Origin: Moheibacter sediminis
Lineage (GTDB): Bacteria > Bacteroidota > Bacteroidia > Flavobacteriales > Weeksellaceae
DNA: 64,000 nt
Assembly (NCBI RefSeq): GCF_900176425.1
Contig: NZ_FWXS01000002.1
Location: 1-64,000 of the forward strand
Direction: 5' to 3'
Part shown: positions 53,772 through 54,923 of the stretch, one piece after another
Position numbering within the stretch: position 1 is the stretch's first letter
Layout: every line of letters starts with the position of its first letter
The notes under the pieces: generated by a model
What the model was told of the DNA's origin: nothing
Databases searched by the model: none
What the model saw: the letters and a program-made list of their open reading frames with translations, nothing else
Translations under genes and position numbers: made by a program

Positions 53772-54023
53772 ATGAAAAAAGGAATTCATCCCGAAAATTA
53801 TAGATTAGTTGTATTCAAAGATATGAGTAATGATGAAACTTTCATCACTCGTTCTGGAGCTGACACACGCGATACAATTGAAATCGATGGTGTAGAGTAC
53901 CCATTGATCAAAATGGAGATTTCAAGTACATCTCACCCTTTCTACACAGGAAAACAAAAATTGGTAGATACAGCAGGTCGTATCGACAAATTCAAAAATA
54001 AGTATTCAAAATTTCAAAAGTAA
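53772..54023 (+). CDS. rpmE2: Ribosomal protein L31, type B
   Basis: The 83-residue protein reads [20 protein letters not shown] at its start and [20 protein letters not shown] near its end, the type B L31 pattern without zinc-binding cysteines. It is a large-subunit ribosomal protein. The frame opens at 53742, but the ATG at 53772 matches the family. It has its own promoter and terminator. Bacteroidota use this cysteine-free form as a main L31, independent of zinc supply. Confidence 0.97.
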
Positions 54024-54042
54024 GATTTTGATTTGTTCATAA

Positions 54043-54073
54043 TAAAAAAGTTCCGTTTTGCGGGACTTTTTTT
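54043..54073 (+). terminator. Terminator after L31
   Basis: The stem AAAAAAGTTCCG pairs with CGGGACTTTTTT around TTTTG with one G-U pair, and T residues continue to 54073. It begins 20 bases past the stop. Confidence 0.85.
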
Positions 54074-54099
54074 ATGCAATCAATTTTTTTTTTCAATAT

Positions 54100-54245
54100 T
54101 AGGGCACGTCCGCCGTGCTGCCCTTTGAGCAGGCATCCCGTCGGTCGGGCTTTTCACGGCTCCGCTTCGCTTCGGTACTTCATTGCATTTCGTACCGCTT
54201 CTTTCAGTCGCGCCCTTGCAATCCCTCGTGCGAGTCGAGGGTTTT
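54100..54245. ncRNA. GC-rich hairpin-dense non-coding element
   Basis: This ~146-base block is far richer in G and C than its surroundings. It contains four successive hairpins: GCACG/CGTGC (54104-54108 with 54114-54118), CCCG/CGGG (54137-54140 with 54146-54149), CGGTAC/GTACCG (54173-54178 with 54192-54197) and CCCTCG/CGAGGG (54223-54228 with 54236-54241). It could be a structured RNA or a REP-like dispersed repeat; no gene is supported. I did not match it to a named RNA family. The rest of the 324-base gap up to 54347 is AT-rich and empty. Confidence 0.4.
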
Positions 54246-54347
54246 ATAATAATTTTAAGCCCTTAATATTATCAATAATTCGTCGAGTTTTATAAAATCA
54301 AAAAACATATACCAAATTACTTGTTCGTAAAAGCGTTTCAATTTTAT

Positions 54348-54923
54348 TTACGAAAGACTTTTCGCCCGTATCTCACTCAGGTATTCCGGTGTGAATCCAA
54401 GAAAAGAAGCTATCAGATATTGCGGTATCCGTTGCACAAACGCTGGTTGGGCCTCAACCATCTTATGGTAAAACTCCTCTTTACTATAATTGAATAAATA
54501 CCTCAATCTCCTTTGAGCTGCCGCAAACGCACGCTGATAAACAAATCTGAAATATCTTTCCATTTCCGGAAACTTTATCAGCAATTCCTCCTGAGCTTCC
54601 TGGCTGATCACCAAAACGACTGACTTTTCCACCGCCTGTATATAGAAATCCGTCACAAGCTTATGTTCATAAGCAAGATGATCCGTTATCCACCAAGTTT
54701 CAATTGCAAATTCAGTCGTTTGTTCCGTTCCTTTCTCATTGATGAAAAACTTCCGCAGACAACCCTCCAGTACAAAATAATGAAACTTGCAAACATTTCC
54801 TTCCACTAGCAGATTTTCTTTCTTTCTCACATTTAACACATGAAAATAATCCAGAATCAGAGGGAAATCTTCCTCACTCACCTGGATAAATTTTTCTAAA
54901 TGTGCTTTGAAAATCCCTGACAT
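54348..54923 (-). CDS. Crp/Fnr family transcriptional regulator
   Basis: The 191-residue protein has a cyclic-nucleotide-binding-like beta-roll (LLVEGNVCKFHYFVLEGCLR, TEFAIETWWITDH) and a short C-terminal HTH (IPQYLIASFLGFTPEYLSEI). The Arg/Glu residues for cAMP binding are not conserved, as in many Bacteroidota Crp-like proteins, so another effector is likely. The protein is close to the family length of about 190. The targets are unknown. It lies alone on the minus strand below the aminopeptidase gene. Confidence 0.9.
   Translation of the reverse strand: MSGIFKAHLEKFIQVSEEDFPLILDYFHVLNVRKKENLLVEGNVCKFHYFVLEGCLRKFFINEKGTEQTTEFAIETWWITDHLAYEHKLVTDFYIQAVEKSVVLVISQEAQEELLIKFPEMERYFRFVYQRAFAAAQRRLRYLFNYSKEEFYHKMVEAQPAFVQRIPQYLIASFLGFTPEYLSEIRAKSLS

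Follow-up and report, generated by a model that had tools for sequence, protein, structure and literature searches.

The described system closest to the element reported here is Flavo-1 (RF01705). Table 1 of PMC2864571, published in 2010, enters it as an RNA ('y') of the Bacteroidetes that is not cis-regulatory ('n'), and gives no function in that table. The passage of PMC9723704 that places Flavo-1 in the F. psychrophilum map reports no consistent relation to transcripts, and the entry in PMC9029176 lists it without a function. Among the open-licence literature matches listed, no description of the element type studied here was found. Looser parallels exist as well. REP/BIME repeats are short intergenic hairpins present in many copies, and integron attC sites, whose core boxes are AAC and GTT, are recognised as one folded strand and conserve structure above sequence.

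The element lies in the window, a 64,000-nucleotide stretch of Moheibacter sediminis DNA (contig NZ_FWXS01000002.1, positions 1 to 64,000). It occupies the gap between two converging genes, one for ribosomal protein L31 (53742-54023, plus strand; PF01197; type B in NCBIfam) and a Crp/Fnr-like gene (54348-54923, minus strand) whose cNMP-binding match scores 27.2 bits against a cut-off of 27.5. The original prediction had described a GC-rich block at 54100-54245 as a possible structured RNA or dispersed repeat. The base composition is as claimed, with a GC content of 0.61 at 54100-54199 versus 0.22 at both 54000-54099 and 54250-54349. Both halves of the description are supported, by many copies and by covariation, and neither of the findings named beforehand as refuting it, a single copy or a lack of covariation, was obtained (23 copies; covariation above controls). 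The strand and the limits had to be changed. RNA of the plus strand folds no better than its shuffles (z -0.90; 35 of 200 as good), whereas the minus strand, the structured sense, does (z -3.35; 0 of 200 as good), and the real unit spans about 54102-54233. The four stems that had been drawn as a row of local hairpins all exist as strings: CGGTAC/GTACCG at 54173-54178/54192-54197, CCCTCG/CGAGGG at 54223-54228/54236-54241, CCCG/CGGG at 54137-54140/54146-54149 and GCACG/CGTGC at 54104-54108/54113-54117. That row is not the conserved fold, in which only CGGTAC/GTACCG is a helix as drawn. GCACG at 54104-54108 pairs there with CGTGC at 54227-54231, the CCCG/CGGG pairing is a competitor of the conserved helix P2, and the CCCTCG/CGAGGG hairpin overlaps the 5' end of the element and extends beyond it. 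The parts of the window copy are as follows.

54102 to 54233, minus strand: the element, one copy of a dispersed structured repeat, with limits from comparison with nine other copies
54227 to 54231, minus strand: 5' arm of the closing stem P1 (GCACG in minus-strand sense); P1 pairs completely in 21 of the 23 copies from this genome, with 3' limits set by eye
54104 to 54108, minus strand: 3' arm of P1 (CGTGC in minus-strand sense), placed by eye with the pairing in view
54223 to 54225, minus strand: 5' arm of P2 (GGG in minus-strand sense); two-sided changes in two of the three pairs of the paralogue alignment
54147 to 54149, minus strand: 3' arm of P2 (CCC in minus-strand sense), the other side of the same three pairs
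54173 to 54197, minus strand: distal helix CGGTAC/GTACCG with the apical loop; helix 4 of the paralogue alignment, with 96.7% of cells paired and two-sided changes in two pairs
54109 to 54146, minus strand: variable third arm, common to the Flavo-1-type copy L006 (81% identity, query 9-62, E 4.9e-7)
54223 to 54241, plus strand: terminator-like hairpin CCCTCG/CGAGGG followed by TTTT, across the 5' end of the element and outside the conserved fold, from the consensus scan

Read on the minus strand from 54233 to 54102, the element is a three-way junction that has P1 (54227-54231 paired to 54104-54108) as its closing stem. Its first arm is long and contains P2 (GGG/CCC), one A.G mismatch, one short helix, an internal loop of 3x3 that is mostly of the GNA/GNA form, more helices and usually a GNA triloop, the last being present in 45 of 45 orthologues and 8 of 10 paralogues. 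The second arm is variable. The internal loops are purine-rich, and the columns of the A.G mismatch and the GNA loop are invariant or nearly so. A 73-aa ORF across the block was considered as coding and rejected, because the orthologue alignment contains gaps of 1 and 2 nt.

The block was searched against the whole M. sediminis genome (G000; 3.23 Mb in 27 contigs, with the window on C17). The count of copies by BLAST that had been suggested gave 19 blastn matches down to E=10; of the 15 inspected, eleven were copies by eye. A covariance model, R1, was built from ten own-genome copies; its matches number 26 at E≤10, of which 16 reach E≤1e-3; the window copy, itself one of the ten builders, matches it at 54140-54232 with 79.3 bits (E 9.7e-17). 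Element ends are present in seven of the ten weaker places (L056-L065), mostly with a shorter core. L057 (judged degenerate), L059 (identical with the Flavo-1 copy L024) and L065 were left out, and the place of L064 was read as L185. The hand-checked total is at least 23 related copies of 74-147 nt. Of 27 own-genome copies, 24 are free of overlap with ORFs of at least 100 aa, and we take the ORFs of 107, 116 and 123 aa overlapped by L042, L049 and L025 for chance open frames. The nearest ORFs converge on the copy in 6 cases, diverge in 9 and run in tandem in 12, according to a neighbour table of simple length-based ORFs from which those overlapping the element are excluded by construction. No recurring neighbour or orientation preference was seen by eye among these 27.

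Covariation was evaluated in two sets. P1, of five base pairs, stays paired in nearly all own-genome copies despite ten different 5' arms. Its arms match in 24 of 27 copies, whereas 10,000 random pairings of the arms gave 9.0 matches on average and never more than 17; these 27 comprise 24 own-genome copies and three from genus relatives, Flavo-1-type copies included, the 3' limits behind both P1 counts were judged by eye with the pairing already known, and L049 and L095, being orthologues, are not independent. At fixed register P1 fails in L024 (limit one base short), L185 (pairs one base off), L006, L027 and L053. The ten paralogues, aligned with the variable arm removed and the 3' ends set by eye, give a covariation score of 0.386 versus 0.168 shuffled and at most 0.120 slid, and 19 further pair types, a number that is only modestly high (reached by 50 of 500 shuffles). 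Because this alignment is partly hand-set, the independent set of 45 Chryseobacterium sequences, aligned with MAFFT, is important. Without a given structure, RNAalifold returned 37 pairs for these sequences, all within the 40 drawn, and 13 of them show two-sided changes. The drawn structure scores 0.133 there, versus 0.072 shuffled (0 of 500 as high) and at most 0.042 slid. Two-sided changes occur in 8 of 13 pairs of the variable arm, in 2 of 2 of the apical helix and in five pairs of the inner helices; the arm that matches the variable third arm of the window copy covaries as helix 8. P1 hardly varies among the 45 orthologues and no pair of it is changed on both sides, so that its covariation rests on the paralogues. 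A conserved fold with compensatory changes, one mark of a structured noncoding RNA, is present.

Flavo-1 had been named as a lead. It fails for the window copy, where a 241-base search up to E≤10 yields no Flavo-1 match (gathering score 42 bits) and the Rfam check that had been proposed assigns no family. When the window, 11 own-genome loci, 20 family loci and 20 stretches from relatives were scanned, no Rfam family reached its gathering score on a window-type copy; at L088 a Flavo-1 match of 39.2 bits lies beside the element, not on it. The lead holds for the genome, where the two types share ends and the 3' arm. Flavo-1 occurs there at six places above the gathering score and at others below it, and several of these matches have the same outer anatomy as the window type. 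L006, 27 kb away on the same contig, matches the full Flavo-1 model weakly (21 bits versus 42) and is the copy that has the third arm in common with the window copy. L007, of the window type, and L030 and L031, of the Flavo-1 type below the gathering score, have identical first 12 nt, last 9 nt that are identical or almost so, and different middles. In the Rfam model the flanks are drawn unpaired. P1 and the third arm fall outside it, and the distal arm of the window copy is another one. Since the window copy has no Rfam match, yet Flavo-1-type copies have ends in common with copies of its type and one of them has its third arm, we place it beside Flavo-1, not in Flavo-1. Both types are found in many copies per genome in Bacteroidota, as hairpins with GNA-type internal loops, and all 53 stretches retrieved with a core pattern (below) are titled Bacteroidota. 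We incline, if only a little, to the view that the window element and Flavo-1 form a larger Bacteroidota group of structure-conserved elements, and this forms part of our best explanation.

Some variant forms were noted in other genomes. L116, L123 and L155, from Flammeovirgaceae and Cyclobacteriaceae MAGs, have a short core, GCGGC/GCCGC as closing stem and another distal arm, like the short-core copies of M. sediminis. Two contigs of the Bacteroidia MAG SKYG108 (L138, L141) carry five R1 matches in 12 kb. In at least three of these copies the roughly 40 nt preceding the 5' end resemble one another, which would suit a longer form of the element in this MAG.

To compare sites, 24 pieces of flanking proteins from 12 copies were used as one query, and the gene pairs of five copies were located in genus relatives. 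The L045 site is empty in five of five relatives (gap 156-167 nt versus 406 here) and the L048 site in all four with a readable gap (125-131 nt versus 434 here), with boundaries not resolved to the base; a fifth relative has a gap of 860 nt and no element match at the L048 site. At the L044 site two relatives lack a match, and the gap of one is as long as here, which makes the length uninformative. The single relative located for L043 has a shorter gap and no match. The L049 copy is also present in G001 (55.9 bits), with no match in G002 and G005. For the window site only L31 could be placed: the stretch downstream of it has no element match in four relatives, and a Crp-like gene was not found beside L31 in them. 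Altogether R1 matches in one of the 20 stretches from relatives, and Flavo-1 at E≤1 in none of the 20. Because the L045 and L048 sites lack the element in relatives, some copies are lineage-specific, by gain here or by loss there. The copy common to G001 means that not all copies are recent, at least one being older than the split from G001.

The search for a mobiliser covered several candidates. No target-site duplication was detected (score 42 versus 38.0 shuffled, with 101 of 300 shuffles as high). The Y1 transposase, PF01797, has no match in the M. sediminis genome, the positive control giving matches in 5 of 14 known genomes. Plasmid and phage collections returned no match at E≤1e-3. A pattern search by the 5' end for an autonomous form with its ends split by a gene gave 27 places versus 13 for the reversed control; six of those not yet known were inspected, one being another copy (L185) and five looking like chance, and no such form was seen among them. 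The genome has one reverse transcriptase and five genus relatives have no RVT_1 match, so that its presence parallels copy number. It was rejected as a mobiliser, because it belongs, with PRTase and WH genes, to a type III-A retron (L195, G000:C9, about 262-265 kb), which is a defence system.

The element differs in some respect from each of the looser parallels. It is a short intergenic hairpin in many copies, like the REP/BIME repeats that go with RAYT, but the genome lacks the Y1 transposase. MITEs resemble it in being short, non-coding and dispersed, and its ends may count as inverted; the end arms, matched in 21 of 23 copies, are only 5 bp long and vary in sequence between copies, and no target-site duplication was detected beside them. 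As in attC sites, structure is conserved more than sequence. However, the copies are isolated, no cassette array being seen, and their conserved ends are TGCRYS..GGGAT and GCCC rather than AAC/GTT boxes. The explanation that we find somewhat the more probable is that of a mobile, dispersed element of about 75-150 nt. The folded single strand of a copy would be the form that some enzyme recognises; copies would spread as its non-autonomous passengers, and some would afterwards be retained for the fold. Against the mobile reading stand the absence of a mobiliser from the searches above, the lack of target-site duplication and the empty plasmid and phage collections.

A locus in Chryseobacterium bears on this explanation in both directions. 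Within the family, matches at E≤1e-3 were found in 35 of 148 genomes, many of them in genus g20 and carrying one strong copy each; under stricter filters, 7 of 296 genomes of a phylum-wide sample match at E≤1e-4. A fixed core pattern run over 84,980 species genomes, one per species, retrieved 53 stretches: 47 are titled Chryseobacterium, and the remaining six belong to four assemblies of other Bacteroidota. The end of an ALDH gene adjoins the element in 45 of the Chryseobacterium stretches, with the element antisense to the gene; the other two (L121, L152) stop short of the ALDH side. The best NCBIfam model for this gene is the acetaldehyde dehydrogenase ExaC, at 859 bits and below the cut-off of 900. 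The same neighbour is found at 19 of 29 loci of the family set (g20 and g9). The ALDH side is constant, and gene content on the 5' side of the element varies. DUF779 comes next, with no AdhP gene visible, in 12 of the 47 (L125, L126, L137, L146, L150, L151, L153, L154, L160, L162, L165 and L166).

With L121 and L152 left out, the element core (87-90 nt, 45 sequences) has a mean pairwise identity of 92.0% and a minimum of 82.8%, and its unpaired loop positions are conserved as much as its stems. We read the Chryseobacterium copy beside the ALDH gene as under strong purifying selection, because the third codon positions of the ALDH gene (44 sequences) have a mean pairwise identity of 59.5%. The 60 nt after the 3' end are 77% identical, in a stretch that runs into the ALDH gene. 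Selection supports the part of the preferred reading in which some copies are retained for their fold. A selected copy fixed in position is not expected of a mere passenger and counts against the other part.

The main rival, accordingly strongest at this locus, is that these are regulatory or structural RNA elements acting in place, as an antisense RNA or an mRNA 3' end, and dispersed by duplication with no dedicated mobility system. The single conserved locus adjoining ALDH and the purine-rich internal loops favour it, as does the excess of G-U over A-C on one strand. As to the strand itself, folding energy is lower in the minus-strand sense for 21 of 23 copies, and the consensus energy is -44.2 kcal/mol in that sense versus -39.6 in the opposite one. 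G-U exceeds A-C by 82 to 26 in the 45 orthologues, although 45 of the 82 come from one invariant pair and 18 of the 26 from one pair; the count is 48 to 17 for 61 distinct mixed rows taken without P1, one pair making up 12 of the 17. Energies and pair types favour the minus-strand sense. This preference does not separate RNA from single-stranded DNA, and we put minus-strand RNA slightly ahead as the working molecule. Hairpins of d(GCGNAGC) are very stable DNA mini-hairpins, and the GNA triloop recalls them, which is one reason why single-stranded DNA is ranked nearly level. No T-run after a stem was found at the 3' end of the element, 21 of 27 copies continuing with A in the minus-strand sense. 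Against the in-place reading, the M. sediminis copies have no common neighbour or orientation. Moreover, the 60 nt before the 5' end in Chryseobacterium (44 sequences) are only 33% identical (17% shuffled), and the promoter word TAnnTTTG shows no excess there (2 of 45 versus 6.8 shuffled), although a looser form does (17 of 45 versus 6.9). Elements acting in place thus remain a serious but doubtful account of the whole set. The mobile reading fits the M. sediminis genome better and the regulatory RNA reading the Chryseobacterium locus, and both may be valid for different copies.

Template-switch correction of imperfect palindromes during replication yields matched changes in both arms, and the copies are palindromic, so a passive repeat with an unselected fold could in principle show paired changes. 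Such correction should make internal mismatches vanish, yet the A.G mismatch and the GNA loop columns persist, and the Chryseobacterium loops are as well kept as the stems while third codon positions have diverged; we consider this account very unlikely. That the block only forms the 3' end or the terminator of the L31 gene and is GC-rich by chance is scarcely credible: the CCCTCG/CGAGGG hairpin does have TTTT on the L31 strand and is among two terminator-like sites in the region (0.6 expected), but it lies outside the conserved fold, the remaining copies lie away from L31, and for 9 of 27, flanked by diverging genes, neither neighbour ends towards the copy. The L31 terminator named in the original prediction, at 54049-54073, is visible by eye (GTTCCG/CGGGAC, then a T-run) and is absent from the output of the consensus scan.

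Returning to the reading of a dispersed passenger element, a wider and more tentative version is that Flavo-1 and these elements could constitute one Bacteroidota-wide class of mobile hairpins, moved in the form of a folded single strand by an undescribed enzyme, with no duplication of the target, and open to domestication, as the fixed and selected copy at the ALDH-like gene end in Chryseobacterium might exemplify.

For Flavo-1, published in 2010 with no function given in the table concerned (PMC2864571), the comparison suggests a full unit with a closing stem and a third arm beyond the Rfam model, and a sister type that Rfam misses. There is also evidence that copies have been gained or lost. 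In dozens of Chryseobacterium species selection on the element appears far stronger than on synonymous sites, and the ALDH locus makes the function of the element directly testable.
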